Source: Bacteriovorax sp. BAL6_X
GTDB taxonomy: Bacteria > Bdellovibrionota > Bacteriovoracia > Bacteriovoracales > Bacteriovoracaceae
NCBI RefSeq assembly: GCF_000443995.1
Contig: NZ_AUMC01000009.1
Location: 248,001 to 312,000, forward strand
DNA: 64,000 nucleotides
Reading direction: 5' to 3'
Below, one piece after another: positions 17,301 to 52,900 of this stretch (position 1 is the first letter of the stretch; each line of letters opens with the position of its first letter). The translations under genes were made by a program, and so were the position numbers. A model generated the notes under the pieces. That model was not told where the DNA came from, searched no databases, and saw only the letters and a list, made by a program, of their open reading frames with translations.

Positions 17301-17417
17301 GCAAAATTGACTGGCTAAGGCCAGTCTATTGTTTGCTTTGCTGGCTCCCCGTGAAGGGGGCACTCTTTATCCGAGAGCGAGGGGTTAGGCCCGAGCGGTT
17401 CGCTTAAGGAGCAAAAA
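17301..17417 (+). repeat. Structured stop-codon-linked intergenic element, copy A
   Basis: It begins with the base after the atpD stop. The first part folds as a long hairpin: GACTGGC-TAAG-GCCAGTC inside an outer AAGCAAA/TTTGCTT stem. A second domain is closed by GCTCC (17344-17348) and GGAGC (17408-17412) and contains CCCC/GGGG, CTCT/AGAG and GCG/CGC helices, ending GGAGCAAAAA. The same plan recurs after ychF and etfA. There is no clear T-run, so it is not a plain terminator. It sits between atpD and atpC and may set epsilon levels or mRNA ends. Confidence 0.75.
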
Positions 17418-17441
17418 TAATGCTTAATTTATAAGGATTAA

Positions 17442-17855
17442 ATGATGAGTAACTTTGTTGTAAATATTCTAACGCCTAGCTCAGTTGTTGCGAAGAACGT
17501 ACCAGCAGACTCAGTTTTCATTCCAACTTTAAAGGGTGAGATTGAAGTTCTTGATGGTCACACTCATATTGTTGAGAAGCTAGCTACTGGTAGCGTTGCT
17601 GTACATGGTGATGATTCTGAAAGATTCTTCACTGTTACTGACGGTATCGTAAAGGTTTTAAATGACCAAATTACTATCCTATCTCTGACTTCAGAAGAAA
17701 ATTGTCAGATTGATGAGGAAAGAGCTACAAATGCACTAATTTACGCTCGTGAAAAGCTGAAAGGAACACTGACTGATGAAGAATTAGTTAAGTATCGTCG
17801 CAAGCTTGAAAGAGCGGAACTTAGATTACAACTAGTTAAGCAAATTTCTAAATAA
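17442..17855 (+). CDS. atpC: ATP synthase subunit epsilon
   Basis: Epsilon is a small F1 rotor subunit that also inhibits hydrolysis. The 137-residue protein shows the N-terminal beta-sandwich with VNILTPSSVV and DSVFIPTLKGEIEVLDGHTHIVEKL (family: P...G.i.vL..H.p.v..L) and a C-terminal helical hairpin. Start ATG-ATG at 17442/17445 follows ATAAGGA. It is the last gene of the cluster and is followed by a strong terminator. Confidence 0.94.
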   Translation: MMSNFVVNILTPSSVVAKNVPADSVFIPTLKGEIEVLDGHTHIVEKLATGSVAVHGDDSERFFTVTDGIVKVLNDQITILSLTSEENCQIDEERATNALIYAREKLKGTLTDEELVKYRRKLERAELRLQLVKQISK

Positions 17856-17861
17856 TAGATT

Positions 17862-17889
17862 AGGCCCTGAAAACAGGGCCTTTCTTTTT
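17862..17889 (+). terminator. Terminator of the ATP synthase operon
   Basis: AGGCCCTG and CAGGGCCT form an 8-bp stem with an AAAA loop, followed by TTCTTTTT. It begins 7 bp after the atpC stop. Confidence 0.92.
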
Positions 17890-17960
17890 CCTATTTAAAT
17901 AGTATCGGCAAATTCTGCCTCTTAAGTCCTAAATACACCAATAGTGAGAAAATAGAGCTA

Positions 17961-19520
17961 ATGATTATTAGGTTTATTTATCTCTTCATTTCTTTATTTT
18001 TAGCAAATGCGTACGCATTAAATGGTGGAGATATAGTTACTCTTAAACCTAAGAGTTTTGATGTTAAAGAAACATTTGAGTTACATAAGCGTTTTGTACC
18101 ACCTATTGCATATCAAGGGCATGTTGAGTCCGATGAGATTGTTATGGCAAGCTCAGGCGTCCAGAAAGGTGCCAAAGTAAGCGGTAATATTAAAGATGGT
18201 GAAGATCTCGTATTCTTTTCTTATGGTGATAATAAAGGTAAGAAAGAGGCCCTCAAGAAGCCTTCGGGTTTATCGAAAGTACCTATTGTTAAAGCAAAAC
18301 CGACAGTATTAGGAAAACCTAAAAACTATAAACCTGTCATTGATTTTTCAAGCTTTATTCAATCAGCTGCACGTAAAAAGAAATCAGTTTCAAACTTCAA
18401 GGTGAAACTACGTGAGTTTGGTCCTAAAGGCATATCAAAAAATAATTTAACTGATTTTGACTTAGTTCCTACTTATAACTTAAACGAGCTATTTACTGAT
18501 GCTGGGATGGGAGAGATTACTATTCCAATTTCTAGTGGTGATAACTTTTCAACTTTTCGGGGTTCAGTTGCTGCGCAGGGAATTATTAGAACTAATTTTG
18601 AGTTAAGTGCACGTAGTGATACGACCTTTGATATTCCTGTTATTAATGGTGATTATCTTTTTAAGATTTTAGAAAAGAATAAAGTGAAGGAAGAAACAGG
18701 CGCCCATATACTTGTGGATCTTGGTGATAAAATAGATACATCTACATTCATGGGTAGCTTTAAAAAGAAGGTTTTCTTAAATAGGAACTTTAAAGAGGTA
18801 GATCCCGGAGATGCCTTCGTGTACGAGCTCTATCTTGATGTTGAATTAGGAAATCATCTAATTAAGTATATGGACTTTAAGGGCAAGGTTGCACAAAAAA
18901 TTATCCATCTTGTACAAGATGAACTTACATATGAAGCACCTTTACTATTAGATGCGAAGGCAATCAGCTTTTCGGTTTATGAAGAGAACCTAGCTGCTAA
19001 AACCTTACAGTCTCTAAATTTAAACAATAATGATATTCGATATTTTAATCGTGAAATTACTGCCGCTAAAGTTGGCCTTAATCGCTATAAAATTCTTACC
19101 CCATTGCGGGATGCTAGTTTTAAACACTATATTGAAGTTGGCAAAGAGACTTCGGTCTTTGTGGGATTTAACGACATTAAAAAAGTCGTAATACCATCGA
19201 TTGAGTATATTGATTATTTAAAAGAGCTTTTTCAAAATCGGGCCGATAATGGTGCATGTGTTATTCAAATTAACTTGAATAATCCACTGGTTGGTTTTGA
19301 AGCATATATGTCTTCACAGCGGCCTTCTGGATCATATGATTTTTATTATATGGACAAAGATGGAACAGTTAGTGCTGAAATCACAGGGCTTACGGAGAAG
19401 GTATTTGTTATCTCTCATGATTACGGGATAATGAATACTAAGATTGACTCTGGGGACGGCAATATCCAATACACGCAAAGTTTCTGTACTGAAGGATTAT
19501 ATATTATTGAAAATATCTAG
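17961..19520 (+). CDS. Exported protein of unknown function
   Basis: I do not recognise this 519-residue protein. It has a clear N-terminal signal peptide (IIRFIYLFISLFLANAYAL, cleavage likely after about residue 19), a Lys-rich low-complexity linker (about 85-150) and then beta-rich sequence without membrane segments. Two cysteines near 433 and 513 could form a disulfide, consistent with the periplasm or outside. It is transcribed with the small barrel gene 41 bp downstream. Confidence 0.75.
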   Translation: MIIRFIYLFISLFLANAYALNGGDIVTLKPKSFDVKETFELHKRFVPPIAYQGHVESDEIVMASSGVQKGAKVSGNIKDGEDLVFFSYGDNKGKKEALKKPSGLSKVPIVKAKPTVLGKPKNYKPVIDFSSFIQSAARKKKSVSNFKVKLREFGPKGISKNNLTDFDLVPTYNLNELFTDAGMGEITIPISSGDNFSTFRGSVAAQGIIRTNFELSARSDTTFDIPVINGDYLFKILEKNKVKEETGAHILVDLGDKIDTSTFMGSFKKKVFLNRNFKEVDPGDAFVYELYLDVELGNHLIKYMDFKGKVAQKIIHLVQDELTYEAPLLLDAKAISFSVYEENLAAKTLQSLNLNNNDIRYFNREITAAKVGLNRYKILTPLRDASFKHYIEVGKETSVFVGFNDIKKVVIPSIEYIDYLKELFQNRADNGACVIQINLNNPLVGFEAYMSSQRPSGSYDFYYMDKDGTVSAEITGLTEKVFVISHDYGIMNTKIDSGDGNIQYTQSFCTEGLYIIENI

Positions 19521-19561
19521 TTTGAGAGAAAATTACTAGATTTATCTTATGAGGAGATTGT

Positions 19562-20065
19562 ATGAAAAAGATTTTAATTGCAATGATGATTATGATTGCT
19601 GGTTTCCAAGCACAAGCTGGAATTTATGTTGAGCCATACCTAGCTTATAATATTCTAGGTGAAACTGATGGTGATGATACTACAGGTACAAATATCGGTG
19701 GTCGTTTAGGTTATTCTTTACCAATGCTTGTTAGTTTTGGACTTGATTATAATATGGGTTCTTATACGATTGATAGTGCATTAGGTGATGTTGACGCTGA
19801 TACTACTAATCTTGGTGCATTTGTTGCAGTTGATTTACCAATTCTTTTAAGAGGTTATGCAAGTTATTACTTCTCTTCTGATATAGATACAGGAAGTGTT
19901 TCTTATGATGGTTCAGGAATTGCTGTTGGTGTTGGTTTTACAATGCTGCCATTTGTTTCACTTAACCTTGAGTACAGAGCAATGAGTTACGATGGCTCAG
20001 GAGCTGTTTCAGACTTTGATGCTAAGGAAATTCTTGTAGGAATCTCGGTTCCTCTTGATCTTTAA
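19562..20065 (+). CDS. Small outer-membrane beta-barrel protein
   Basis: The 167-residue protein has a signal peptide (MKKILIAMMIMIAGFQAQAG) and then alternating amphipathic strands typical of an eight-stranded OmpA/OmpW-like barrel (GRLGYSLPMLVSFGLDYNMGSY, VAVDLPILLRGYASYYF, SLNLEYRAMSYDG). The C-terminus ends VGISVPLDL, close to a barrel-targeting last strand. Family not determined. GAGGAGA precedes ATG. Confidence 0.8.
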   Translation: MKKILIAMMIMIAGFQAQAGIYVEPYLAYNILGETDGDDTTGTNIGGRLGYSLPMLVSFGLDYNMGSYTIDSALGDVDADTTNLGAFVAVDLPILLRGYASYYFSSDIDTGSVSYDGSGIAVGVGFTMLPFVSLNLEYRAMSYDGSGAVSDFDAKEILVGISVPLDL

Positions 20066-20087
20066 TTTTAAAAAAATTAACGAATAT

Positions 20088-20116
20088 AAAAAGGCCCACA
20101 TTAGTGGGCTTTTTTT
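20088..20116. terminator. Bidirectional terminator
   Basis: GCCCAC-ATTA-GTGGGC with A-tract before and T-tract after (20094-20116). It serves the barrel gene on plus and overlaps the stop codon of the patatin gene on minus. Confidence 0.88.
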
Positions 20117-21293
20117 ATGATTCGTATTCTTTATTGTTGAATATTTCCATTGTTCGTTTGTAGCCAGCTTCTAGCATCTTTGTCATTTTCTTTGGATTTA
20201 AGCTAAAAATATCAGCGAAGAAAAGATTGTAATCATCATGCTTAGGGTAAATATCGATAAGCTTCACATCTGGATTAAAATTAAGCTTTCTTTCAATAAT
20301 AGATGTAATATGACGACGCTGTTCATTACTAAATTTTTCATTAAGCATATATTGATTAACAGTATCAATTATATCTTGAGCTGCAATACGTCTAGCTCTA
20401 GAGTCAACAATCTTCTTTTGAATCATTAGGTAAATGGCCTGTGTACAAATGGCAGGAAGCCCATAATTTGCAAGTGAACCAATCTCATCTTGATAGTGAT
20501 AAGGAGTATGGGTCCAACTTGAGATGATATACTCACAACTATTATCAACAGCAACATGAGTAGAGAGAGTTTCACGAATCTCACCATCAATATAGAAATC
20601 TGTCGTATCTGTTACTGTATTATGAATTGGATACGGAGTATAAAAAGGTGGTACACTCATTGAGGCAGTGGCCGCCTCTGCAATTGGAATATCTGTATAG
20701 TAATGGGCTGTTGGATCATGGCTAGGGTTTGGATAATTATAACGAGAAAATATAGTCTTTCTTGAGTTATCTAGCTGTGTGGCAATAATAAATAAATCAG
20801 CATCATAATCATCGAAGTTATTAGATTTAATTATATTATTTAATATATATTCGTGTAGTCCAGTTGTCGAAAAAAGACCTGATACAGTCATGATAGGTTT
20901 TAAAAGACTTTTGATAACCAGTGGAAAACCATCTAATGGATCATATAGATTTGGATGATGAGGTTTTAAACTGGGTCTCTTTAGAGAAAGCATATCCTTA
21001 TATGTAATAGGTTTTAGCCCAGTTTTATTTTTATGAATAAAGGCCTCAATAACATCTAAGGGTGAATGGCCAGAAGCTAAAAAAAGACTAATTAGTGCAC
21101 CCGCACTTGAGCCAACATAAGTTGAAATTTCATAATCAGGATTAATATCGGAATGATTATGTTTGAAAGTAAATCCAAGGTCGTGAAGCGCCCAACTAAC
21201 TCCAAGGTGCCATGCGGCAGCTTTAACGACACCACCTGAAAGAACTAGGGCAGTCTTTTTATTCCTGAAGTTTTCTATATCAACTCTGTTCAT
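20115..21293 (-). CDS. Patatin-like phospholipase
   Basis: Patatin-like enzymes hydrolyse lipid acyl chains with a Ser-Asp dyad. The N-terminal oxyanion region is ALVLSGGVVKAAAWHLGV, the nucleophile elbow GSSAG follows in TYVGSSAGALISLF, and the catalytic aspartate is in the DG motif YIDGEIRE. No signal peptide is evident. I chose ATG 21293, giving 392 residues. The frame extends to a TTG at 21353, but TATAAT lies seven bases before this ATG on the minus strand, which would yield a nearly leaderless mRNA. In predatory bacteria such lipases may act on prey lipids, but that is inference. Confidence 0.88.
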   Translation of the reverse strand: MNRVDIENFRNKKTALVLSGGVVKAAAWHLGVSWALHDLGFTFKHNHSDINPDYEISTYVGSSAGALISLFLASGHSPLDVIEAFIHKNKTGLKPITYKDMLSLKRPSLKPHHPNLYDPLDGFPLVIKSLLKPIMTVSGLFSTTGLHEYILNNIIKSNNFDDYDADLFIIATQLDNSRKTIFSRYNYPNPSHDPTAHYYTDIPIAEAATASMSVPPFYTPYPIHNTVTDTTDFYIDGEIRETLSTHVAVDNSCEYIISSWTHTPYHYQDEIGSLANYGLPAICTQAIYLMIQKKIVDSRARRIAAQDIIDTVNQYMLNEKFSNEQRRHITSIIERKLNFNPDVKLIDIYPKHDDYNLFFADIFSLNPKKMTKMLEAGYKRTMEIFNNKEYES

Positions 21294-21371
21294 AAAAAAA
21301 TTATACTCGAAATACGAATTTATGTATTGATAATTTTTGGCAAAGCACGTCAAGTTGGTTAAAATTAAGAA

Positions 21372-21686
21372 ATGATTTGGATGGACATAAATGACTATTC
21401 ATTGTTGAAGGGAATCTCAATATCAACAATTCGTCGCTATATAAAAAGAGATAAATTAATTTGGAAATTTGACCAGGGTAAATATCTGATTCAAATGAAC
21501 GAGTGGGAATATAACGATTCACTAAGTGCATCAAACGCCATCGTATACCTAAAGCGTTTACAAGAAGAACATGAACTTCTTAAAAAAGAATTAATTAAAA
21601 CCAAGCAAGAAAATAATGAATATAAAATGCTCGTAGATCTCTACGAAGGTCGTCTCAATGAAAATAATCAAATTACTTATAACTAG
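21372..21686 (+). CDS. Small helix-turn-helix / coiled-coil protein
   Basis: A 104-residue protein whose first half (YSLLKGISISTIRRYIKRDKLIWKFDQGKYLI) looks like a MerR/excisionase-type winged helix-turn-helix, reading a recognition helix STIRRYIKRDK. The second half is a short coiled coil (LKRLQEEHELLKKELIKTKQENNEYKML). It could start at ATG 21381. Its end overlaps the following exported-protein gene by 29 bp, so they are co-translated. DNA binding is plausible but unproven. Confidence 0.65.
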   Translation: MIWMDINDYSLLKGISISTIRRYIKRDKLIWKFDQGKYLIQMNEWEYNDSLSASNAIVYLKRLQEEHELLKKELIKTKQENNEYKMLVDLYEGRLNENNQITYN

Positions 21687-23145
21687 CTTTTTACTTTTAC
21701 TATCTCTTGATGCATTTGCTTCACCAAGTGCACGTCGATGTATGATTTTACCTGTAAGGGACTCTGTCGGTGGGGCACTTGGATATGAAGTTTTTGCCAA
21801 AGTTGAAGGTTATCTAAAGTCTTCACGTTGGTGTTACTATCAATATAACTCTGAAATTATCAATATATTATCAAACTATAAGAAGAATTTAGATGCAGCT
21901 TTAGAAAATCCGAAAGTTATAAAATTGGTTTCGGAGAAAACAAATGCTGGCTCATTAATTAAAGTCAAAATTGAAAGCCTACCAAAGGGAGTTGCCGTCA
22001 ATATGCAAATCTTTGGTGCAAATGGTAGAGATATTTATTTTAATGAAAAGATTGAACTCAATAGTGATGATCCTGGATTAATTGCTCAGACAGTCAATAA
22101 TTGGCTAGATCAATATGAAAAACAAATTCCTTATGATGCTCGAGTATTGGGAGTCCTTGGTCAACAGTTCTCTATTGATCTTGGAAAGGATGCCGGAATT
22201 TTTACTGATTATGAAGTGAAAGTTGTGCGACCTATGCGACGTAGAAAGCATCCTCTTCTTCAAGAAGTTGTTGATTGGGAAACTAAAACAATTGCTACGG
22301 GAAGAATTGTTCACGTTGGTGAATCCCTCTCTCAAGTAAAAGTTCTTCGTTACGAAGACAAGAGTCTTATTCAAGCTGAAGATTGGGTATTAATTTCTAA
22401 GAATACAAAAGACTCTGAAAAGAGAAATTTAAAATATGATCCAGTTGAAGGCAATGATCGTACATCTTCATTTGGAAGACTAGGAGAATTCGGACTGGCC
22501 CTCAAAATTGGGACTGGATCTAATAATAATTCATCAATTTCAAATGGGACAAAATCAATTAACGGAGTTGATTTTGCGATTGCTTTTGATAGTGAACTTT
22601 GGCTTACAAGAAATTATTGGGTAGGACTTGAGTTAGAAAAAGGTTTTGGGAAGTATTCAAAAGATGCGGGAAATTTAGTTTCTGATAGTAATTCGATGGA
22701 CTCATCACGTTTTAGACTTCTTGCTGGTTATAAATATCTACCTATGGGCTTCTTCTATGGCCCTCAGGTTGACGTCTTCTTTGGCTATGGTTCATATACG
22801 CATGGTTTTGATAATCAAGTTGCAGATGGTTTTACTGAAATTAATTTTAGTGGAATCTTAGTTGGAGCCAAAGCAAGCATGCCACTCGTAAGAGGAATTA
22901 GAATTTATTTTCAATTCGATTTTATGCTTGATCCTGGCTATGAAGAAGATGTTTCTATATTTGGTAGTGCAAAAGATACAAGTAACTTCCATGTCGCCGC
23001 TGGCGCGGAATATAAGTATGGACCAAATATCAATCTTTATGGTGGAATCGACTACTTAAGTGATAAAGCTGAATTTGCAAGTGATGGTACTAAAGTAACA
23101 GTTAAGAACACGGCCTTGAAGGGTGGTGTGAAATTTGCATTCTAA
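21658..23145 (+). CDS. Exported two-domain outer-membrane barrel protein
   Basis: A 495-residue protein with signal peptide (MKIIKLLITSFLLLLSLDAFA). The soluble N-terminal part (about 25-260) contains a TolB/FlgT-like alpha/beta stretch and a small beta-domain (VLGQQFSIDLGKDAGIFTDYEVKVV). The second half has repeating aromatic amphipathic strands (FRLLAGYKYLPMGFFYGPQVDVFFGYG) and ends GGVKFAF, a typical terminal strand with C-terminal Phe. The protein at 56571-57518 has a comparable soluble-plus-barrel plan. Function unknown. Confidence 0.75.
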   Translation: MKIIKLLITSFLLLLSLDAFASPSARRCMILPVRDSVGGALGYEVFAKVEGYLKSSRWCYYQYNSEIINILSNYKKNLDAALENPKVIKLVSEKTNAGSLIKVKIESLPKGVAVNMQIFGANGRDIYFNEKIELNSDDPGLIAQTVNNWLDQYEKQIPYDARVLGVLGQQFSIDLGKDAGIFTDYEVKVVRPMRRRKHPLLQEVVDWETKTIATGRIVHVGESLSQVKVLRYEDKSLIQAEDWVLISKNTKDSEKRNLKYDPVEGNDRTSSFGRLGEFGLALKIGTGSNNNSSISNGTKSINGVDFAIAFDSELWLTRNYWVGLELEKGFGKYSKDAGNLVSDSNSMDSSRFRLLAGYKYLPMGFFYGPQVDVFFGYGSYTHGFDNQVADGFTEINFSGILVGAKASMPLVRGIRIYFQFDFMLDPGYEEDVSIFGSAKDTSNFHVAAGAEYKYGPNINLYGGIDYLSDKAEFASDGTKVTVKNTALKGGVKFAF

Positions 23146-23175
23146 AATGACAATCTAAATTAGAAGAGAAATTAA

Positions 23176-25053
23176 ATGAATAGAATTAAAGAATTGGCAG
23201 ATCAAATTAAGATCCATAAGGCATTGTACTATGCTGGAAAACCAGAAATTTCAGATATTGAATATGACAAATTAGAAGATGAGTTAAGACAATTAGATCC
23301 AGATAACTCTGTACTTAATCTTGTTGGTTCAACAATCACATCACTAGATAAAGTAAAACACGATAAGAAAATGCTTTCACTTGGAAAAACTTATAAAGTG
23401 GATGAGTTAATCTCTTGGGCCAAAAAACATGAGGTCTTAGGGATATATAAAGTAGATGGAGTTTCTTGTTCTCTGATCTACGAAGGTGGTCATTTAGTAT
23501 TAGCAAAAACTAGAGGTGATGGCACTTACGGTGAAAATATCACACAAAAAGTACAATGGATGAAGGGAGTTCCTGGATCTATCTCTATCAAAGAGAGAAT
23601 AGAAATAAGAGGTGAGATGTATTGTGATGAGCAATCATTCTTTCATCTATCAGAAACAATGGTTTCCCAAGGATTAGAAAGGCCTTCATCACAACGAAAT
23701 ATCGTTGCTGGACTAGTGGGGAGAAAAGAGAATATTAGCCTATGTTCTTATATAAATTTTAAGGCCTTTGATTTAATTGGCCTAGAGTTTGAAAAAGAAA
23801 GTCAAAAATATGAGACGCTTAAGAAAGAAGATTTCGATATTCTTGAATATACTCTCATGCATACAAAAAAAGATTATGAAGTTGCAATTGATGACGCCAA
23901 AGATTTCATGGCAAATGGTGATTATCTGATTGATGGACTTGTATTTGTCTATAATGAAATAAATCTACATGATGAACTTGGGGAAACTGCTCATCATCCT
24001 CGTTATAAGATGGCCTTTAAATTTGAAGGGGAAACGGTACAGACAACTCTTAATTCAATTACATGGCAAGTATCTAGAAATGGAATTTTGACTCCTGTAG
24101 GTGAGGTAGAACCTGTTTCCATTAGTGGTGCTGTGATTTCTCGAGTGACTTTGCATAATTATGGAATGGTTAAACAACATAATTTAAAAGCAGGGGATAA
24201 GATCGAGATAATTAGAAGTGGAGAAGTTATTCCTAAATTTCTTCAAACAATTGAAGAGTCTCAAAATGAATTCTTAATACCTGAATGTTGTCCAAGTTGT
24301 GAGTCTGAAGTTGTCATCGAAGACATTAGACTTTTTTGTAAGAACCCTGCTTGTCCAGCTCAAGTTAAAGAAGCGATATTAAACTTTATTCAAAAAATAG
24401 GTATTGATGATCTAAGTTCTAAACGACTTGAAGAGATGATTCGTAAGAAGTTGGTAACAACAATTGAAGATCTTTATAAGTTAGAAATGAATCAGCTACT
24501 AACACTTGATAAAGTAAAAGATAAACTAGCAACAAAACTTCTTACAAGTATTGAAGGATCAAAGAAGGCTGATTTAATAACATTTATCTCGGCTCTGGGT
24601 ATTACTGGTGGTGCTTATAATAAGTGTGAAAAAGTTGTACATGGTGGATTTGATTCAATAGAAAAGCTATTAAATATGAATGCAGATGAGCTTGCAACTC
24701 TTGAAGGATTTGCAGAAAAGTCAGCTACAACTTTTATAAACTCATTACAAGAAAAGAAAGAATTAATTAAAAATCTACAAGCACTTGGTTTCACTTTTGA
24801 AGTATTAGAAGAAGAGGCTGGCTCTGGATTGGCTGGATTAAAAATTTGTATTACTGGTTCTCTATCACGAAAAAGAAGTGACATTGAAAAAGATATTAAG
24901 GCCGCAGGTGGAACACCTGTTGGTTCTGTTAGCAAGAACACTGATATTCTTCTTACAAATGAAACAGAAGCTAAATCTTCTAAATATAAGAAAGCTCTAG
25001 ATTTAGGAATTACGATTAAGACAGAAGATGAAGTAATGGGAATGATTGATTAA
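23176..25053 (+). CDS. ligA: NAD-dependent DNA ligase
   Basis: LigA seals nicks using NAD+, joining Okazaki fragments. The adenylation lysine is in YKVDGVS (KxDG, about residue 97). The zinc finger reads CCPSCESE ... FCKNPACPAQ, followed by helix-hairpin-helix repeats and a C-terminal BRCT domain (GLKICITGSLSRKRSDIEK). At 625 residues it is somewhat shorter than the usual 660-680, but no domain is missing. The stop shares its last base with radA's start (TAATG). Confidence 0.97.
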   Translation: MNRIKELADQIKIHKALYYAGKPEISDIEYDKLEDELRQLDPDNSVLNLVGSTITSLDKVKHDKKMLSLGKTYKVDELISWAKKHEVLGIYKVDGVSCSLIYEGGHLVLAKTRGDGTYGENITQKVQWMKGVPGSISIKERIEIRGEMYCDEQSFFHLSETMVSQGLERPSSQRNIVAGLVGRKENISLCSYINFKAFDLIGLEFEKESQKYETLKKEDFDILEYTLMHTKKDYEVAIDDAKDFMANGDYLIDGLVFVYNEINLHDELGETAHHPRYKMAFKFEGETVQTTLNSITWQVSRNGILTPVGEVEPVSISGAVISRVTLHNYGMVKQHNLKAGDKIEIIRSGEVIPKFLQTIEESQNEFLIPECCPSCESEVVIEDIRLFCKNPACPAQVKEAILNFIQKIGIDDLSSKRLEEMIRKKLVTTIEDLYKLEMNQLLTLDKVKDKLATKLLTSIEGSKKADLITFISALGITGGAYNKCEKVVHGGFDSIEKLLNMNADELATLEGFAEKSATTFINSLQEKKELIKNLQALGFTFEVLEEEAGSGLAGLKICITGSLSRKRSDIEKDIKAAGGTPVGSVSKNTDILLTNETEAKSSKYKKALDLGITIKTEDEVMGMID

Positions 25054-26423: not shown

Positions 26424-26436
26424 CCCCCTAGTATAT

Positions 26437-27915: not shown

Positions 27916-27952
27916 ATTTACTCCAGTATAAGAGTTAATTTATAGTAAAAAG

Positions 27953-28171: not shown

Positions 28172-28224
28172 AGTGCAATCTTACCTATTTAAGTGTATAA
28201 TACCATTCTAACTGGGGTTAAGAG

Positions 28225-43210: not shown

Positions 43211-43282
43211 CTAGGCAAAATTTAAAAAATTCTTGTCAAAAATAAGAAACTAGCTTATATATTACATACAAATCTACATTGC

Positions 43283-43358
43283 TGGGGTATCGACAAGTGG
43301 CTAAGTCAGCAGATTTTGATTCTGCCATTCGAAGGTTCGAGTCCTTCTACCCCAGCCA
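43283..43358 (+). tRNA. tRNA-Gln (anticodon TTG)
   Basis: A 76-base cloverleaf. Acceptor TGGGGTA pairs with TACCCCA. The anticodon stem GCAGA/TCTGC encloses TTTTGAT, with TTG as anticodon. The T arm reads GAAGGTTCGAGTCCTTC. Discriminator G and CCA are encoded. It is a single isolated tRNA 34 bp before prs. Confidence 0.97.
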
Positions 43359-43391
43359 TTTTCTCACGGAATAAGAGAAAGGAATAAGGTG

Positions 43392-44336: not shown

Positions 44337-44347
44337 ACGGATAACCT

Positions 44348-44929
44348 ATGAATTATTTAATTGTTGGACTCGGCAATCCGGGTTCAGAGTATAAAGGAAC
44401 CAGACATAATATTGGCTGGGATGTTATGAACTTCATCAAGCCTATTAAAGACTTACCATTTAAAGAAAAGTTTAAAGGTATTTGGTCTTCGTTTGAAACT
44501 GATGAAGATAAGTTCTATATACTTATGCCTCAAACTTATATGAATCTAAGTGGTGAAAGTGTTATTCCATTTGCTCAATATTTTAAGATTGAGCCAGATA
44601 ATATTCTAGTTATTCACGATGAATTAGATTTACCTTGGGGAACAGTTGCGTTTAAAGATGGTGGCGGTCTTGCTGGACACAATGGCCTAAAGTCAATTGC
44701 CGGACAACTAGGACACAATAATTTTAAACGTTTACGTATGGGGATTGGGCGCCCTCAACACGGAAGTGTTTCCGATTGGGTACTTGGTCGCTATTTTGGT
44801 GCTGAAGCTGACTTTATTGATGATTACTTAGAAAAAGCTTCAAAAGCCGTTGAATGTTATGTAAAAAATGGTTTTAAAACAGCTATTCAAAGATATAAAA
44901 AGAAACAATTACTAGATTTAAGTAAATAA
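44348..44929 (+). CDS. pth: Peptidyl-tRNA hydrolase
   Basis: Pth frees tRNA from dropped-off peptidyl-tRNA. Conserved motifs: VGLGNPGSEYKGTRHNIGWDV with catalytic His, PQTYMNLSGESV, IHDELDLPWG and GHNGLKSI. Length 193 is normal. It lies 11 bp after prs and 16 bp before ychF. Confidence 0.97.
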   Translation: MNYLIVGLGNPGSEYKGTRHNIGWDVMNFIKPIKDLPFKEKFKGIWSSFETDEDKFYILMPQTYMNLSGESVIPFAQYFKIEPDNILVIHDELDLPWGTVAFKDGGGLAGHNGLKSIAGQLGHNNFKRLRMGIGRPQHGSVSDWVLGRYFGAEADFIDDYLEKASKAVECYVKNGFKTAIQRYKKKQLLDLSK

Positions 44930-44945
44930 ATATCAGGAGATAATA

Positions 44946-46055
44946 ATGGCCCTAAATTGTGGGATTGTAGGACTTCCAAATGTTGGTAAATCAACGATTT
45001 TTCAAGCTCTAACTTCGGCACCAGCTGAAGCTGCTAACTTTCCATTTTGTACAATTGAACCAAATATTGGAATTGTAAATGTTGGTGATATCCGCATGCA
45101 AAAAATTGCAGAAATCATTGGGCCACAAAAAGTAATTCCAACAATCGTAGAGTTCGTTGATATTGCAGGTCTTGTTAAGGGTGCATCAAAAGGTGAGGGA
45201 CTTGGTAACCAATTCCTTGGAAATATTCGTCAAGTAAATGCAATCGTTCACGTTGTTCGCTGTTTTGATGATCCAAATGTTGTTCATGTTCACGGTGAAG
45301 TTAACCCTGTTGATGATATTGAAACTATTAATATGGAGCTTGCTCTGGCGGACCTTGAAGTTGCGCAAAGAAAGCAAACAAACCTTCCAAAACTGATGAA
45401 GAATCAAAATAAAGAAATTTCTTCAAAGGCCAAGATGTTAGTTCCTGTACTTGAGAAACTAATTGCTCATTTAGAGCAAGGTTTAGCTGCACGTATTCTT
45501 GATCTAGATAAAGAAGATATTGAACTTATTCGCGACCTGAATCTAATTACTCTTAAACCTACACTTTATCTATGTAATGTAGATGAGGATAGTGTTGGTG
45601 AGGACAATGACTATGTGAAGGCCGTGAAAGAGTTTGCTGAGAAGGAAGGTTCTCGTGCAATTAAGATTTGTGGAAAACTAGAGTCTGAGATTGCAGCTCT
45701 AGAAGATGAAGCAGATAAGAAAGATTTTATGGAAGCTGCTGGGATTGAGATTTCTGGTTTAGAGACTCTAACACACGAAGCTTACAATATGTTAGGTCTT
45801 CGTACATATTTTACTGCTGGTGTTAAGGAAGTTCGTGCTTGGACTTTTAAGGATGGTGCTAAGGCTCCTGAAGCTGCTGGTGTTATTCACACTGATTTTG
45901 AAAGAGGATTTATTAAAGCTGAGATCTATCACTATGATGATCTGATTGCTAATGGTTCTGAAGCAAAAGTTAAGGAAGCTGGTAAACTTCGTATAGAAGG
46001 TAAAGAGTACGTCGTAAAAGATGGTGATATTATCCACTTTAGATTTAATGTTTAA
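44946..46055 (+). CDS. ychF: Ribosome-binding ATPase YchF (Obg-like)
   Basis: YchF is an OLA1-type P-loop NTPase that prefers ATP and binds ribosomes. G1 is GLPNVGKSTIFQALT, G3 is DIAGLVKGASKGEGLGN, and the ATP-specific G4 reads CNVDED in place of NKxD. The C-terminal TGS-like domain ends GDIIHFRFNV. Length 369 is usual. Its TAA stop (46053-46055) is directly followed by a structured repeat element. Confidence 0.97.
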   Translation: MALNCGIVGLPNVGKSTIFQALTSAPAEAANFPFCTIEPNIGIVNVGDIRMQKIAEIIGPQKVIPTIVEFVDIAGLVKGASKGEGLGNQFLGNIRQVNAIVHVVRCFDDPNVVHVHGEVNPVDDIETINMELALADLEVAQRKQTNLPKLMKNQNKEISSKAKMLVPVLEKLIAHLEQGLAARILDLDKEDIELIRDLNLITLKPTLYLCNVDEDSVGEDNDYVKAVKEFAEKEGSRAIKICGKLESEIAALEDEADKKDFMEAAGIEISGLETLTHEAYNMLGLRTYFTAGVKEVRAWTFKDGAKAPEAAGVIHTDFERGFIKAEIYHYDDLIANGSEAKVKEAGKLRIEGKEYVVKDGDIIHFRFNV

Positions 46056-46183
46056 GCACCCGCGAAATTGACTGGCTTAGGCCAGTCAATTGTTCGCGGT
46101 GCTAGCTCCCCAATACTTTAGCTAGAGAAATATATTCAACAAGCCGGGTTCAAGCCCGGCTTTGTTGTCTCTGGAGCAAAAAA
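46056..46183 (+). repeat. Structured stop-codon-linked intergenic element, copy B
   Basis: It starts at the base after the ychF stop with GCA. Hairpin 1: GACTGGC-TTAG-GCCAGTC within GCGAA/TTCGC and GCACC/GGTGC stems. Domain 2 is closed by GCTCC (46105-46109) and GGAGC (46173-46177) and includes a 12-bp hairpin with six GC pairs (GCCGGG/CCCGGC) at about 46139-46168. The end is GGAGCAAAAAA. About 40 bases here are identical to the reverse complement of each 117-bp unit at 52.4-52.8 kb. Confidence 0.78.
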
Positions 46184-46213
46184 TCTTTGCATAAGAACTT
46201 ACTTTTTTATTAT

Positions 46214-48265
46214 TTACAATTGTGATGAAATTGCACGTTTTGCTTCTTTTTTAGGGAAGGCATTGAAAGTCGATGCCACACTCTTTTCTAAAATATAATT
46301 ATCTTTCATTAGATTATAGAAGAAGAAATTACGATAAATGAGTTTAACGTACAACCTTGTTTCTTTATATGGAATTTGTTCAATTTGAAATATAGGATCT
46401 TCAACATCCATTAGGTCCTGCGCCCATCTCGTAACTTTGGTAGGTCCGGCGTTATAAGATGAAAGTGCATAAATGATATTGCCATCAAATCTATTTAAGA
46501 GTTGCTTAAAGTATCTCACTCCTGCATCAATATTTTTATGAGGCTTTAGAAGTTCATCTGTTTTTCTAAATGTAGTCATTTGTCTAGCTGTTGCTGGCAT
46601 TAGCTGCATTAGCCCTAGCGCACCTACTGCTGATTTTGCGTTTGGATTAAAAGCGCTTTCTTGTCTAATGATTGATAGTACTAGAAGAGGATCTATGTCA
46701 GCATTAACACCCTCGATCTTATCTAAGTGTAGAACAGGAAAGAGTGTTGTGATGTCAATCTTTGATGGTCTAATAAGGTTTAGATCAATTGTTCGAGAGA
46801 CTAGCTTGAAACTTGATAAGAAGTCACCGCTTTCTTTAAAGTGATGGAGGAAGTAATTAAAGATTGCTACACGTTGTTCTTCGATAGGAAGAGTATCAAT
46901 CTTATTTTTATTTGTAATATCAGTTTCTGGATTAAATCGAATGAATTCGTAGATAAGCTTATCGACTTTACCGAAGAATTTTAATTCGTGCCAAATATTA
47001 GATTCACGAATATTTCTTTGTTTTATTTTACTGAAATCTGCTAATTCTAGCTTAGGAAGATTAACTGTGTTTTTATGAAAGTATAATGATTTTACGTAAT
47101 TTTTATCAAACTCAGGAAGGTAGTCCTGGGCAATAATTGAATAGAAACTTAGTGGATTACTATTAATCATTAGTTTGAATAAGTGCTTAGCAAGGGACTC
47201 ATTGCCATCTTTCATATAACTATATGCAATCCAAAATTTTGTTTTAGTGTAGAGATTTGAGAAATCATCAATTAGTTTATAATCTTGAACAGTGACAATA
47301 CTATCTTTGTAGTTTTCATGCTTTATCGAATTCCAAAGAAGTAGAAATAATGACTCGTTCTTTGACTCGTCGTTATAGCTAATTTCATAAGAACGGGCAA
47401 AATAACGATTGGCATTCTTTAGATCATCATTATTTAATAATAACTTTCCAATATAGCGTATACGCTTCCATGATGATTTCTTATAAATGTAATCTTCGTT
47501 GGCTTTTTCAAAAGTTAAAAACTTTGTTAATTGTGAATTGATATCTGACTTTTTAGTAGCATTGTTTTTAACAAGTTTTTTGATTTCTCTATATTGCTTA
47601 ATAAATTCATTAGTAATCGTAAGCTTATTCTTCTTTATACGGTGTAGGTTCTTTTGAAAGAGGAGTGTAATGTCTTTATCGAAATCGATATGTGAATAAA
47701 GTCGTGAATCTATCTTAACGCCGTTGATAAGTGTGATTTCAATTAATTGTTTTTTTATGTGCTGGTAGATCTTTGAATCTTTGTTAACTTCTTCAAGTTT
47801 CTTGATAAAGAGAGTGTTTCGAGATGTCGCTAAATACTGAATGGCCTTAGCAAAATTCTCTTCATCTTCTAAGATATTACTATAGTACTTATCATTTATA
47901 AGATAGTTTACGGTATGGAAGCAGTAATTTTTTATATTACGAACAAAATCGTCTTCAACACGATTTGTATTATTACTTTTTATATTACATGAAAAGTATT
48001 GATCTTTCTTAAGTGAGGTTTTTAATTCACTTAAAAACTCTAGATGAGTTAAATAGTTTTTGAAAATACCACCGTCTTTAATGGATTTTATTGCGCTGGA
48101 TATTTTACGATTTGGTAGACGCTTTCTTTTTAGAATGCGTTCAATCTCAGAAATATAGCGAGCAGCTTTAAGCTCTTTATCCTTGAGAGACTCTTTCGCA
48201 ATGCTTGTAAAAGACAAACTTGCGGTAATTGAAAAAAGAAAAAACTTTTTACCCAATAAACTCAT
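46214..48265 (-). CDS. Soluble lytic murein transglycosylase
   Basis: The enzyme cleaves peptidoglycan glycan strands to anhydro-muropeptides. The Slt domain is C-terminal: SIIRQESAFNPNAKSAVGALGLMQLMPATARQM with the catalytic Glu of the ES motif, then YNAGPTKVTRWAQ. A signal peptide (KKFFLFSITASLSFTSIA) and about 500 residues of helical superhelix precede it, as in E. coli Slt70, total 683. The start overlaps the upstream HAMP gene by 17 bp. Confidence 0.93.
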   Translation of the reverse strand: MSLLGKKFFLFSITASLSFTSIAKESLKDKELKAARYISEIERILKRKRLPNRKISSAIKSIKDGGIFKNYLTHLEFLSELKTSLKKDQYFSCNIKSNNTNRVEDDFVRNIKNYCFHTVNYLINDKYYSNILEDEENFAKAIQYLATSRNTLFIKKLEEVNKDSKIYQHIKKQLIEITLINGVKIDSRLYSHIDFDKDITLLFQKNLHRIKKNKLTITNEFIKQYREIKKLVKNNATKKSDINSQLTKFLTFEKANEDYIYKKSSWKRIRYIGKLLLNNDDLKNANRYFARSYEISYNDESKNESLFLLLWNSIKHENYKDSIVTVQDYKLIDDFSNLYTKTKFWIAYSYMKDGNESLAKHLFKLMINSNPLSFYSIIAQDYLPEFDKNYVKSLYFHKNTVNLPKLELADFSKIKQRNIRESNIWHELKFFGKVDKLIYEFIRFNPETDITNKNKIDTLPIEEQRVAIFNYFLHHFKESGDFLSSFKLVSRTIDLNLIRPSKIDITTLFPVLHLDKIEGVNADIDPLLVLSIIRQESAFNPNAKSAVGALGLMQLMPATARQMTTFRKTDELLKPHKNIDAGVRYFKQLLNRFDGNIIYALSSYNAGPTKVTRWAQDLMDVEDPIFQIEQIPYKETRLYVKLIYRNFFFYNLMKDNYILEKSVASTFNAFPKKEAKRAISSQL

Positions 48266-48812
48266 TGAAACGACCTTCCATACTTTTTAACTTAGTGACT
48301 ACATCACTTAAGATTAATTTCTTATCGTCAGGTACAACTTGTTGTAGGTTTTTTAAGTAGTTGCAGATTTCATCAATATAGACAGTGTCCTCCTTGAAAT
48401 TTGTTTGGAAGTACTCAACTGTTAAATTAACTTCATCTGCTACATCTTGAAAATAATCACCTTCTCTAAATGAAAGTTTTCTTTCAAACCCTGTGTGTCT
48501 AAGTCCAGCAAGATATTGTTTTAACTTATAAAGTGGTCCTGCAACTTTGTGAGTAAAGAAAACACATACTACAAAGATGAGGATACCAAAAAATGCTTGG
48601 CATAAAATGAGGAAGTTTAAAAGATCACTCTTCATTGTTGCAATATGCTCAGCAGATTGTGGAAATTTTTCTGAAATATTGGTTAACACCTGATAAATCA
48701 CAAGTGGGTAGAACGCACTAAGAACTAAGATTACGATACAAATTAGTGCACTGAACCTCAGTTGAAATTTAGAGTCGACTATGATTATTGAACGCTTATA
48801 TGGTTTAGACAC
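48249..48812 (-). CDS. Two-helix membrane protein with HAMP-like domain
   Basis: The 187-residue protein has two membrane helices (about 20-42 and 68-90) with a short periplasmic loop. After the second, FFTHKVAGPLYKLKQYLAGLRHTGF is the family start of a HAMP-type linker (AGPLYxLKxxL), followed by a helical tail (DYFQDVADEVNLTVEYFQ). There is no kinase or methyl-accepting domain. Such short HAMP proteins occur in deltaproteobacteria with unknown function. Coupled to the transglycosylase gene. Confidence 0.75.
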   Translation of the reverse strand: MSKPYKRSIIIVDSKFQLRFSALICIVILVLSAFYPLVIYQVLTNISEKFPQSAEHIATMKSDLLNFLILCQAFFGILIFVVCVFFTHKVAGPLYKLKQYLAGLRHTGFERKLSFREGDYFQDVADEVNLTVEYFQTNFKEDTVYIDEICNYLKNLQQVVPDDKKLILSDVVTKLKSMEGRFNEFIG

Positions 48813-48961
48813 AATTTCTCCAAACTTTAATTTAGTTTCTTTAGTAATTATAGCATCTTATGAATTTTGTTGTAGGGCAAAAATTTGCTTTACTCGTTGA
48901 ATAAGTGCCCAATATTTAATAAAATCCTCGCGTAAAACATAAAAAAACTGAGAGAATTAGT

Positions 48962-50104
48962 ATGCTAAATATTGAAGTAGTGAAAAGTAAATTAGTTGAG
49001 GTTAATAACCCAAACACAGGTAAGTCTTTATTAGATGAGAATCGTTATAAGGATATTGCAATTGAAGATAAGAAAGTAACTATTGTTTATAACCGTGATG
49101 GTATCTCACCTGCGCAAAAACGTGAGATTGAAGATGCTATTGTTAATTCACTATCAACAGTAGTTAGTGAAGATGATCTTTTCATTAAAACTATTTCAAC
49201 TCAAGAGGCTCCAGCTCAACAACAGCAAAAGCCTCAACAGGGTGCAAAGCTTGAAGTTGGTCACGCTAAAGCAGCTCCTCAAAAACGTGATATCCAGGGC
49301 GTTAAGAAGATTATTGCTGTTTCATCTGGTAAGGGTGGAGTAGGGAAAAGTACAGTATCTGTAAACTTGGCCTTAGCTCTTAAGAATCAAGGTAAGAAGG
49401 TTGGTCTACTAGATGCAGATATTTATGGGCCTTCGATTCCAATGTTACTTGGACAAAGAAATGCAAAACCTCTTGCTACAGATGATAAGAAAATTGCCCC
49501 TATAGAAGCACATGGAATTAAGTTCATTAGCTTTGGTTTATTTATCGAAGAAAAGGACGCCGTAATTTGGCGTGGACCAATGCTTGGCGGAGTTCTAAAT
49601 CAATTCCTTTTTGATGTTGACTGGGGAGAGCTTGATTATCTTGTTCTGGACCTACCTCCTGGAACAGGAGATGTTCAGTTATCAATTGCCCAGACATTAA
49701 ATCTAAGTGGAATCGTTGGTGTATCAACTCCACAAGATGTTGCTCTTCTTGATTCAAGAAAGGGCTTCAATATGTTCGAACAAGTTAATATCCCGGTTTT
49801 AGGGCTTATTGAAAATATGAGCTACTTTGCTCCAGATGATATGCCAGAGAAAAAGTACTATATCTTTGGTGAAAAAGGTGGGGCCGATATTGCTAATGAA
49901 TTAGGTTATCCATTCTTAGGTGAAGTACCGATCGAAATCGCACTTCGTGAATCTTGTGATAAGGGAATTCCTTATATGTCTAATAATTCATACGAAAATA
50001 GGCCAGTATGGAAAGCATATTCCGGTATTGCAAAAAAGATCATTGAAATAGAAAATAATGATGGTGAGGGAAAAGGTTTTTTCTCAAAAATTTTCAAAAG
50101 GTAG
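48962..50104 (+). CDS. Mrp/NBP35-family iron-sulfur cluster carrier ATPase
   Basis: Mrp/ApbC proteins carry Fe-S clusters to targets. An N-terminal MIP18-like domain (about 1-75) and a Gln/Ala-rich linker precede the ATPase: deviant Walker A SSGKGGVGKSTVS, DADIYGPSIPMLLG, LVLDLPPGTGDVQL. The CPxC cysteine pair that usually bridges the cluster after ENMSYF is missing (APDDMPEKKYYIFG); I recall similar cysteine-less versions in some other phyla. Length 380. Confidence 0.93.
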   Translation: MLNIEVVKSKLVEVNNPNTGKSLLDENRYKDIAIEDKKVTIVYNRDGISPAQKREIEDAIVNSLSTVVSEDDLFIKTISTQEAPAQQQQKPQQGAKLEVGHAKAAPQKRDIQGVKKIIAVSSGKGGVGKSTVSVNLALALKNQGKKVGLLDADIYGPSIPMLLGQRNAKPLATDDKKIAPIEAHGIKFISFGLFIEEKDAVIWRGPMLGGVLNQFLFDVDWGELDYLVLDLPPGTGDVQLSIAQTLNLSGIVGVSTPQDVALLDSRKGFNMFEQVNIPVLGLIENMSYFAPDDMPEKKYYIFGEKGGADIANELGYPFLGEVPIEIALRESCDKGIPYMSNNSYENRPVWKAYSGIAKKIIEIENNDGEGKGFFSKIFKR

Positions 50105-50107
50105 TAA

Positions 50108-50641
50108 ATGTCCATCATACAGAAAATTGAAGAGCAGTGCTCTTTTAATTTCACTGGTAGAATTAATATTTTAAAAAGAGCCGATCGACAGTTCTTGGGC
50201 GTTATTTATATTAGCGAGGGAATTGTTGTTGCGGCCCAATTCTCTAAGAAGACAGGGCTTAAGGCTCTTTATTCTCTTGTTATATTTGAAATGGATCATA
50301 TTGAAGAATTCACTCTTGTGGCCGAGCCAGAGGTAGTTTCTGAAAGTGATTATGAATTCAAATTAAAATTTAGTGAGTTGAAGAGCAATATTGAAAACGC
50401 TTACTCACAGCACTTAAAGGCGAAGTCACTTCGCCCACCAGAAAATATTCACATTTTGATCAATTCCGCGTTTATAAAAAATGGAAAAAAGACTGGTGCA
50501 AATGAATTTTTACTATTAAAAACTATAGCTGAATACAGCAAGGTTAAAGATATTTACAGCAATTGCGAATTATTTGATTTTGAAGTTACCCAAGCATTAG
50601 TGAATCTAAGAAAAATGGGTGCCTTGAAGGTCGTAAAGTAG
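50108..50641 (+). CDS. DUF4388/PatA-like N-terminal domain protein
   Basis: A 177-residue cytoplasmic protein. The N-terminal part (FTGRINILKRADRQFLGVIYISEGIVVAAQFSKKTGLKAL) follows the DUF4388 pattern: FtG.l.i......G.iyf..G.iv.A......G..Al. These domains are common in deltaproteobacterial regulators and gliding-type GTPase systems. The C-terminal part is helical with a possible winged-helix end (TQALVNLRKMGALKVV). It is 4 bp after mrp and 10 bp before the next small gene. Confidence 0.65.
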   Translation: MSIIQKIEEQCSFNFTGRINILKRADRQFLGVIYISEGIVVAAQFSKKTGLKALYSLVIFEMDHIEEFTLVAEPEVVSESDYEFKLKFSELKSNIENAYSQHLKAKSLRPPENIHILINSAFIKNGKKTGANEFLLLKTIAEYSKVKDIYSNCELFDFEVTQALVNLRKMGALKVVK

Positions 50642-50650
50642 GAGTTTTAA

Positions 50651-50842
50651 ATGAAAGATCAAACACATAACCAAGGCAATCTTAAAGAGCTTAAAGTTAT
50701 GATCGAAGAAAACGTTGTTACCTCTTTTGAGCTAATGTCTCAGAATACTGGGATTGAGCTTGAAGAGCTTATTGTAGTCGCTCTAAAGCGCTTTAGAGCT
50801 TCTCATAGTGATTATGAGAAGAAGACTTTCCAAGTTGATTAA
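50651..50842 (+). CDS. Small protein of unknown function
   Basis: A 63-residue acidic helical protein preceded by TAGGAG. The middle part (LMSQNTGIELEELIVVALKRFRA) could be a ribbon-helix-helix-like or short helical pair. It ends the mrp-DUF4388 unit and is followed by a good terminator. Position and ribosome site support it as real. Confidence 0.65.
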   Translation: MKDQTHNQGNLKELKVMIEENVVTSFELMSQNTGIELEELIVVALKRFRASHSDYEKKTFQVD

Positions 50843-50859
50843 ATATTATTCATATTAGA

Positions 50860-50890
50860 GTAGACACACCTTATGGTGTGTTTACTTTTT
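50860..50890 (+). terminator. Terminator of the mrp unit
   Basis: GTAGACACACC and GGTGTGTTTAC pair (one G-T) around TTAT, followed by CTTTTT-type tract. Confidence 0.85.
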
Positions 50891-50995
50891 CTACAGTGTT
50901 AAAAATTTAACAGTCTGATTCCTAAACAATCCAAGAGTTTTTATTAAATCCGAACGTGTTTTCATGTAGTTAGCAGATATACGTATTTGTTCAAT

Positions 50996-51012
50996 TTGGC
51001 ACGAGTGTTGCT
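50996..51012 (+). promoter_or_regulatory. Sigma-54 (RpoN) promoter
   Basis: TTGGCACGAGTGTTGCT matches the consensus YTGGCACGNNNNTTGCW at every defined base: GG at 50998-50999 and GC at 51010-51011 are exactly 12 bp apart. Transcription would begin near 51023, with the ribosome site TAGGAGC and ATG at 51046. Sigma-54 promoters need an enhancer-binding ATPase, so the gene is switched by a specific signal. Confidence 0.9.
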
Positions 51013-51045
51013 TCTATATACGCATATAGGTTTTAGGAGCACTGT

Positions 51046-52224
51046 ATGAAAGCAACAGCTATTTACAAGAAATTCATTATCGCATCAGTACTATCAGGGT
51101 CATTCCTTGTATTCGGTGGAATTTACCAAGGAATTTCAGTAACTGATAACTCATTTATGCAACAGAAAGATATTTCTTTTGAAAAGAGAGTAGATGAGAG
51201 TGTTGATCGTATCGTTGCTTCATCTGATCGTGATAAAGTTTCAGTTCAATACCTACCGGTAGCTGAATATTCTCAAATTATTGATGGCCAGTGGGAAATC
51301 GTTAGAGTTGAAAATCACGAAGGAAATGAAATCTTTAATGAAAAAAATGTTAACTCTAAAAGATTAGTAGATATGAAGCTAATTGGTACAGGTCTTGTTC
51401 AGCTTAATGATAGTGAAGAGTATACTTTTGATGTTTCTTTCCTTCATGAAAATAATAAAAATATCTCTATCTTTAGAGCTTACGAAGATGGTTTTGAATT
51501 AATTGAAGCTAGAAAAGTTATTGAAGAGAAAATAGAAGAGACTTTAGAAGTTAATATTGATAAAGAGCTTGAAGAAGTTGCAGTTATTGATGAAAACGAA
51601 AGAAGAGAATTAGTTATTGAAAGAGTTGTTCTTCCACAACTTAATAACAAGCTAATTCGTGGTGAAGATAAAATTGAAGGAAGTGTGACAGTTGGTCCAA
51701 ATGGTATTCAAGGTCTATACTTCAATGTTTTTGATAAAGATATCAATGAAGTTCTTGGTGACATCAAGCTTAAAGATGGAAGCTCTTTTGAAGTTGAACT
51801 TCAGGGACAACTATCACACGGTGTATTTGCTAGAAATGGTGAAAATGGTTACCGTCTAAGATTTACTACTGGTCCATATGCTGGTGGTCTTATTAATTAT
51901 GTAACTTATGATGAACTAGAAAGAGTAAATGCTGAATTTGAAAATATGGAAAGAGCAAAAGAAGAATCACGTTTTGAAAGATCTCTAACAGAAGAAGGAT
52001 CTTTTGAAAATGATATCAACTTAGCTCAAAGTAATGCAAATCCAGTATCTTTTGAGAAACAAAACGAAGAGCAAGCTGAAGAAGAGAGATACGAGGAAAG
52101 ATACGAAGACGAGCAGTACGAGGAAGAAGCTTTAATTGATGACCCAGCTGCTAGATTTGAAGAGCAACAAGAGCTTGAGTACGAAAGACAAGAAGAATTA
52201 GACAGACAAGGTTATGGATTTTAA
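51046..52224 (+). CDS. Exported acidic protein under sigma-54 control, unknown function
   Basis: A 392-residue protein with an N-terminal membrane/signal segment (FIIASVLSGSFLVFGGIYQGISV, about 10-32). The middle is beta-rich, with two similar parts (IDGQWEIVRVENHEG... and IQGLYFNVFDKDIN...GVFARNGENGYRLRFTTGPYAG). The last 70 residues are extremely Glu/Arg/Tyr-rich (EEQAEEERYEERYEDEQYEEE), a charged tail or coiled coil. I do not recognise a family. It stands alone between two terminators. Confidence 0.8.
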   Translation: MKATAIYKKFIIASVLSGSFLVFGGIYQGISVTDNSFMQQKDISFEKRVDESVDRIVASSDRDKVSVQYLPVAEYSQIIDGQWEIVRVENHEGNEIFNEKNVNSKRLVDMKLIGTGLVQLNDSEEYTFDVSFLHENNKNISIFRAYEDGFELIEARKVIEEKIEETLEVNIDKELEEVAVIDENERRELVIERVVLPQLNNKLIRGEDKIEGSVTVGPNGIQGLYFNVFDKDINEVLGDIKLKDGSSFEVELQGQLSHGVFARNGENGYRLRFTTGPYAGGLINYVTYDELERVNAEFENMERAKEESRFERSLTEEGSFENDINLAQSNANPVSFEKQNEEQAEEERYEERYEDEQYEEEALIDDPAARFEEQQELEYERQEELDRQGYGF

Positions 52225-52257
52225 TCCTAAAATATAAAGAGAGAAGAGAAGATAAAA

Positions 52258-52284
52258 CAAAGGCCCTCAAAATTGAGGGCCTTT
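52258..52284 (+). terminator. Terminator after the sigma-54-driven gene
   Basis: AAGGCCCTC-AAAATT-GAGGGCCTT, then TTTAT. It lies 34 bp after the stop at 52224. Confidence 0.88.
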
Positions 52285-52303
52285 TATGTATTCGATTTAC
52301 GAA

Positions 52304-52900
52304 GTTTATTTGCTCCTGAGGCGAACCGCTGGGGCTTGTACCCGGCTTGTTGAATATGTAATTCATTTCATTGCACAGAGGCCTAGCACTGCAGGGAATA
52401 GATTGATTATTGCAATAACTTTCCCATTGGCCTAGAGACAACAAAGCCGGGCTTGAACCCGGCTTGTTGAATATGTAATTCATTTCATTGCACAGAGGCC
52501 TAGTACTGCAGGGAATAGATTGATTATTGCAATAACTTTCCCATTGGCCTAGAGACAACAAAGCCGGGCTTGAACCCGGCTTGTTGAATATGTAATTCAT
52601 TTCATTGCACAGAGGCCTAGTACTGCAGGGAATAGATTGATTATTGCAATAACTTTCCCATTGGCCTAGAGACAACAAAGCCGGGCTTGAACCCGGCTTG
52701 TTGAATATGTAATTCATTTCATTGCACAGAGGCCTAGCACCGCAGGGAATAGATTGATTATTGCACTAACTTTCCCATTGGCCTAGAGACAACAAAGCCG
52801 GGCTTGAACCCGGCTTGTTGAATATGTAATTCATTTCATTGCACAGAGGCCTAGCACCGCAGCCAATAGTTTGCCTTTGGGCAAACAATACTGCAGATGC
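52304..52900 (-). repeat. Structured stop-codon-linked element, copy C, expanded as a 117-bp tandem array
   Basis: Read on the minus strand, it starts at the base after the etfA stop with GCA and a hairpin GTTTGCC-CAAA-GGCAAAC. Four full 117-bp units follow (plus-strand 52742-52858, 52625-52741, 52508-52624, 52391-52507), differing at only a few positions. Each unit has a stem GGCCT/AGGCC, the GCCGGG/CCCGGC hairpin shared with copy B, and a GGGAA/TTCCC hairpin. The last partial unit switches to the AGCGGTTCGC module of copy A and ends GGAGCAAATAAA. This region of 676 bp between 52225 and 52900 holds no other gene I can support. Confidence 0.85.

Follow-up and report, generated by a model that had tools for sequence, protein, structure and literature searches.

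The genome to which this DNA belongs (genus Halobacteriovorax, 3.23 Mb) contains a family of repeats that share a covarying fold and begin exactly at the stop codons of genes; they are present in some species and absent from the same sites in others, and they have been copied within a genome. We favour, as the probable explanation, a non-autonomous, RNA-structured, REP/MITE-like mobile repeat family that inserts at the stop codons of translated genes. Since only the reading frame makes a triplet a stop codon, the location of all 17 loci at stops, with none found elsewhere, calls for one of two things, each of which would be new: targeting coupled to translation, or strong selection for a fold with its start at the stop.

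Copies in the window and their fold

Three copies lie in the window, the whole 64-kb stretch of DNA that was analysed. They follow atpD, ychF and etfA, and the sequence bears out the positions given for them in an earlier note on this DNA: each starts directly after a TAA stop, and each continues with GCA.

17298–17338, plus strand: TAA stop of atpD (17298–17300) and hairpin 1 (sequence, alignment and folding)
17343–17416, plus strand: domain 2 of the atpD copy, closing stem GGCTCC..GGAGC, type B hairpin 2 (tandem G-A, 17372–17402) (folding)
46053–46104, plus strand: TAA stop of ychF (46053–46055) and hairpin 1 (sequence, alignment and folding)
46105–46183, plus strand: domain 2 of the ychF copy, closing stem GCTCC (46105–46109)/GGAGC (46173–46177), with a TTTAGCTAG box at 46117–46125 and a type A hairpin 2 at 46137–46167
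52852–52903, minus strand: TAA stop of etfA (52903–52901) and hairpin 1 of the first unit (sequence and folding)
52304–52851, minus strand: five tandem domain-2 units of the etfA copy, closing stem GGCC/GGCC, type A hairpin 2

In the predicted fold of the atpD copy the stop bases 17299–17300 are paired with the 3' arm, and a local hairpin at 17343–17361 competes with the domain 2 fold. The etfA copy is a tandem array with a period of 117, 4.6 copies and a 98% match. Its last unit (52352–52308) is a chimera of both hairpin-2 types with a type B/GGAGC end, a sign of recombination between copies. Against dinucleotide shuffles the RNA folding z-scores are -3.1 for atpD, -9.0 for ychF and -4.9 for the first etfA unit; that of the last, degraded etfA unit, at -0.25, is not significant against such shuffles.

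The fold of the family was drawn by hand as 32 pairs. In the alignment 91.1% of the cells are paired, against 74.1% after shuffling and 29–42% when the structure is slid along; these percentages lean towards the structure to which the alignment was fitted, and the slid controls guard partly against this. Changes on both sides are found in 19 of the 32 pairs, with a covariation score of 0.412 (shuffled, 0.165 ± 0.016), and the two-domain fold is well supported. The abundant compensatory changes support the earlier proposal of a structured family under selection for its fold, and the covariation proposed for the closing stem, GCTCC/GGAGC against GGCC/GGCC, is a real double change (alignment pairs 55–176 and 56–175).

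Two helices make up hairpin 1, an outer one at the stop and an inner one, the latter kept in such unlike sequences as GACTGGC/GCCAGTC, GTTTGCC/GGCAAAC, GGCCGCC/GGCGGGC and ATCTTAGC/GCTAAGAT. Domain 2 is closed by one or the other of the two stems and encloses hairpin 2, which is either CAACAAGCCGGG..CCCGGCTTTGTTG (type A) or, with the helix frame unchanged, has tandem G-A pairs (type B). In three copies (L035, L038, L045) an additional module of about 50 nt, for example AGGATGAATGGTATGTCCACGAAGGCAGGATCCGAGAGTGGAC, lies in domain 2, flanked by the two arms of the outer helix of hairpin 2. Folds of single sequences agree on hairpin 1 in nearly all copies and on the closing stem less often. A cross-species alignment of stop hairpins was too uneven for a second covariance model.

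Are these simply ordinary terminators, or chance similarities? Stable hairpins are present near the stop in several other genes of the window. However, the elements have no U-run, a separate terminator often comes after them, and they form one cross-hybridising, covarying repeat family; this explanation is already refuted, and its probability is next to nil. The earlier note knew of no named family with this plan, and comparison with Rfam agrees, the copies having no relevant match even at E<=1. Two further candidates were rejected. A tRNA- or tmRNA-like domain had been suggested by GGGTTCAAGCCC, but the window's only Rfam match is a tRNA elsewhere, and the motif is a covarying hairpin that reads GCCTGCATTTATGCAGGC in other copies. 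Stop-codon readthrough or recoding would use a frame that is open behind the stop in a few copies (e.g. etfA, L040) and closes early in most.

Distribution of the family and its stop codons

With the atpD and ychF copies as BLAST queries, and with R1, a covariance model of 15 copies, about 25 units were found at 17 loci of the genome (G000). The three elements of the earlier note are thus all present, and the genome-wide total is 17 loci, not three. All 17 begin at an in-frame gene stop in the orientation of the gene, 10 at TAA and 7 at TAG. No copy was found away from gene stops in the model search, which uses a prefilter that strongly decayed copies elsewhere could escape; the sole additional R1 match in the genome is the antisense of the ychF hairpin. 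The genes that bear elements, named by reading their translations without a database search, are atpD, ychF, etfA (tandem), ahcY, an M3 peptidase, a putative lipoprotein, a hypothetical protein (three tandem units), relA/spoT, rpsA, a lysine-rich protein, nuoI, groL, lpdA, nfuA, metG, guaA and tex. Most of these are core genes by their translations, and they are probably highly expressed. The groL copy has lost hairpin 1. Downstream of the element behind the lysine-rich protein gene (L040) there is a tandem repeat, GCGACACTTTAGCGAAGCTAAAGTTAGCAAAAACTATCTCATATAACCAAGA.

If gene stops make up about 12% of intergenic TAR trinucleotides, which is a rough estimate, the chance of finding 17 of 17 loci at stops is near 1e-16. 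TAG is used at 7/17 element sites and in 13/60 window genes (p 0.056), an excess that is only suggestive. A Fisher test against sibling stop codons was circular, the genes having been chosen for TAG, and was discarded. Among the bearer stops of this genome and of the congener copies read there is no TGA, a codon that is scarce generally (3/60 window genes).

The covariance search proposed in the earlier note yielded additional copies in this genome and in congeners, all linked to stops and with abundant compensatory changes. The outcome named there as contrary to the idea (no further copies, or copies without stop linkage or compensation) was not seen. The GCA that follows the stop is common to the three window elements but marks only one subfamily, and outside it the junctions read TAG-CG, TAG-TGC, TAA-CTG and TAA-ACA. 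Scans of GTDB contigs and viral contigs for exact patterns gave matches at about the number expected by chance. A search of the family with concatenated elements mainly drew in a different repeat family. About 20 genomes of the bacterial family contain a different two-hairpin repeat with conserved CGCTTTACCGTTGTGC .. ATGCATGGGCGGA, which is not stop-anchored and has no Rfam match; it is found at L226 (the G007 groL 3' region), L229–L247, L253 and L254, and at G000:C3:730973-731038 (L272).

Empty sites, duplicated copies and the stop codon

Orthologous 3' ends, 71 in all, were read for 14 bearer genes in congeners and two other genera. At 67 of the 71 there is no element: a plain terminator or the next gene comes after the native stop, and the position of the protein end is unchanged. 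The atpD–atpC gap in congeners, for example, is only about 12–20 nt. Empty orthologous ends with the protein end in place indicate that the elements are insertions and not inherited UTRs.

Diverged elements of the same plan are also found at stops in congeners: behind nqrF (three tandem units) and groL in G003, ahcY in G001, ahpC, fusA and groL in G005, and fusA in G004. In G007, which belongs to another genus, they follow groL, fusA and rny. For the G005 groL, G004 fusA and G007 elements, family membership rests on plan and position instead of a model score. The G007 copies at groL and rny share 106 identical nt beginning with the TAG, with different codons before it, and all three genes are empty in G067 of the same genus. 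The pair is a case of within-genome copying with its left boundary at the stop. The earlier suggestion of a mobile element at stop codons is thus supported by the empty orthologous sites and by the 106-nt identical copies in unrelated genes, although elements at groL and ahcY, which several species have, could in part reflect ancient inheritance. Directly behind the nqrF and rpsA terminators of G007 there is a tandem repeat of another kind, GGAGGCG..CGCCGAACAACCC..GATCGGGTG (L090, L163).

The stop codon and the element appear to be linked. CTA forms the end of hairpin 1's 3' arm in nine TAG copies (the rny duplicate left out); among the TAA copies that do not belong to the TAAGCA subfamily, 5/7 have TTA there. 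Within that subfamily most 3' arms have TGCTA, and with this sequence one A of the stop would bulge out. Likewise, rpsA and guaA (G000) and ahpC (G005) have TAG with the element, and TAA in all empty congener orthologs read; fusA has TAA with the element in G007 and TAG without it in G067. From this coupling, and from the change of stop that accompanies the element, it follows that the third base of the stop, if no more, is probably part of the element, or else was adapted to it later.

Does the anchoring reflect selection instead of targeting? The elements could be cis-acting 3'-UTR regulators whose fold protects or tunes highly expressed mRNAs, with copies surviving only at stops. The core, probably highly expressed bearers, the compensatory changes that keep the fold and the fact that several species have elements behind groL, fusA and ahcY would all suit such a role. 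However, random insertion predicts neutral intergenic copies or decayed remnants, of which none were found in the model search, and most orthologs manage without an element; we consider this account unlikely, while giving it some weight. The G007 groL/rny pair with its 106 identical bases, together with the empty congener, makes the question of targeting or selection testable.

Possible routes of insertion, probable effect and known systems

The genome has four Y1 transposase genes of RAYT-like size, and no reverse transcriptase was found in it. A retroelement was rejected on the latter ground. No R1 match lies less than about 2 kb from a Y1 gene in this genome or in congeners, and a RAYT-linked REP was likewise rejected, the Y1 genes being present but without a neighbouring element copy. 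A different inverted repeat, TATCGACGTACC (L177, L268; G000:C9:239410-240309 and 13 sites), brackets one Y1/RAYT-like gene and occurs in the genome mostly as pairs about 200 nt apart. L268 closely follows L036's stop-anchored element. As a control, this repeat is found 6–1176 nt from the nearest stop and never at 0.

Could a RAYT-like Y1 transposase nevertheless mobilise the elements as REPs, by recognition of TAR beside the hairpin, as GTAG-REPs are mobilised by their enzyme? Four genes of fitting size, a hairpin directly 3' of TAG or TAA that resembles the GTAG-hairpin plan, and the ability of GTAG-REPs to supply stops (PMC3733652) speak for it. Yet no element copy flanks the Y1 genes, and TATCGACGTACC, the repeat beside one of them, nowhere falls exactly on a stop. 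Nor does TAR specificity explain the restriction to stops in frame: alone it would also give intergenic copies, and as none were found in the model search, translation-coupled targeting or selection is needed. Mobilisation of this kind is rather improbable.

More radical is a mobile element that targets the translation stop itself, through insertion linked to ribosomes that are terminating, or to cleavage of the mRNA in the A site behind TA. This would be a nucleic-acid parasite that reads the reading frame; we know of no transposon class that does so, and regard the idea as a long shot. In the form of an RNA-level event, in which the element enters at a terminating ribosome, for instance where the mRNA has been cleaved behind TA in the A site, and gets back into DNA by way of a cDNA, it is more doubtful still. 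Frame-specific targeting needs translation, the seemingly element-borne third base is consistent with a join after TA, bearers lack TGA and expressed genes are preferred; against this, no reverse transcriptase was found in the genome, and TGA is rare regardless (3/60 window genes). To our knowledge there is no precedent for translation-coupled or RNA-level insertion at stops.

Under the favoured explanation, a mobile REP/MITE-like family, a non-coding repeat unit of typically 100–190 nt would insert at a gene's stop codon and supply at least its third base. The stop would thereby become the foot of hairpin 1, with TAG facing CTA and TAA facing TTA or TA. In the mRNA, hairpin 1 would be followed by the second domain closed by GCTCC/GGAGC or GGCC/GGCC, and a structured 3' UTR would begin at zero spacing behind the terminating ribosome. 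The fold may act as RNA, either like REP hairpins close behind a stop, by slowing the last ribosome, or by shielding the 3' end of the mRNA. The family is a natural set of structured 3' UTRs for the study of stop-adjacent folds on highly expressed mRNAs.

Like GTAG-REPs and REPINs with their RAYT (PMC3733652, PMC2817692, PMC3116915), the elements are short, palindromic, non-coding and mobile, and REPs too lie mostly behind genes, with GTAG-REP ends that often supply TAG stops (PMC3733652), a precedent for stops carried by an element. Here 17/17 loci lie at stops. REPs and REPINs are otherwise defined by a single palindrome of about 20–40 bp with an unpaired GTAG or CGTC tag and by flanking their own RAYT/Y1 gene; the present units are about three times longer (about 100–190 nt), have two domains and neither a fixed GTAG tag nor a constant unpaired one, number about 25 where REPs often number hundreds, and are all at stops and not beside a RAYT gene. 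Several copies share CGTC/GACG with CGTC-tagged REPs, flanking the inner stem of hairpin 1, but the tag of those REPs is at an unpaired end, whereas in the elements CGTC is paired with GACG within the outer helix. We know of no description of CGTC-REPs as stop-anchored.

Bacterial MITEs (ERIC, Correia/NEMIS, RUP; PMC2229807) are likewise non-coding, about 100–200 bp long, transcribed and folded, with TA at the insertion point. The elements differ in being confined to gene stops and in lacking terminal inverted repeats, ends such as TAAGCACCC and GGAGCAAAA not being inverted repeats in the copies read. TA on both sides is found in lpdA, G003 nqrF, G005 ahpC and G005 fusA and not in most copies. 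Integron attC sites are folded sites behind ORFs that sometimes overlap the stop. The elements, in contrast, are single sites behind core genes and not cassette arrays, and the RYYYAAC/GTTRRRY core pair is absent from their ends in the sequences read.

The lack of defining features of REPs, MITEs and attC sites lowers the claim to membership in these classes, but not that to working like a stop-proximal REP. According to work cited in PMC12306157, E. coli REPs that lie no more than 15 nt behind a stop are proposed to stall ribosomes, and they share with the elements a hairpin directly behind the stop. A regulator of this stop-proximal kind lowers translation from within 15 nt. Compared with the REPs described there, the elements have zero spacing, a stop that can itself pair and a second domain that follows. 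The geometry fits, and the likely effect of the elements is that of stop-proximal REPs.
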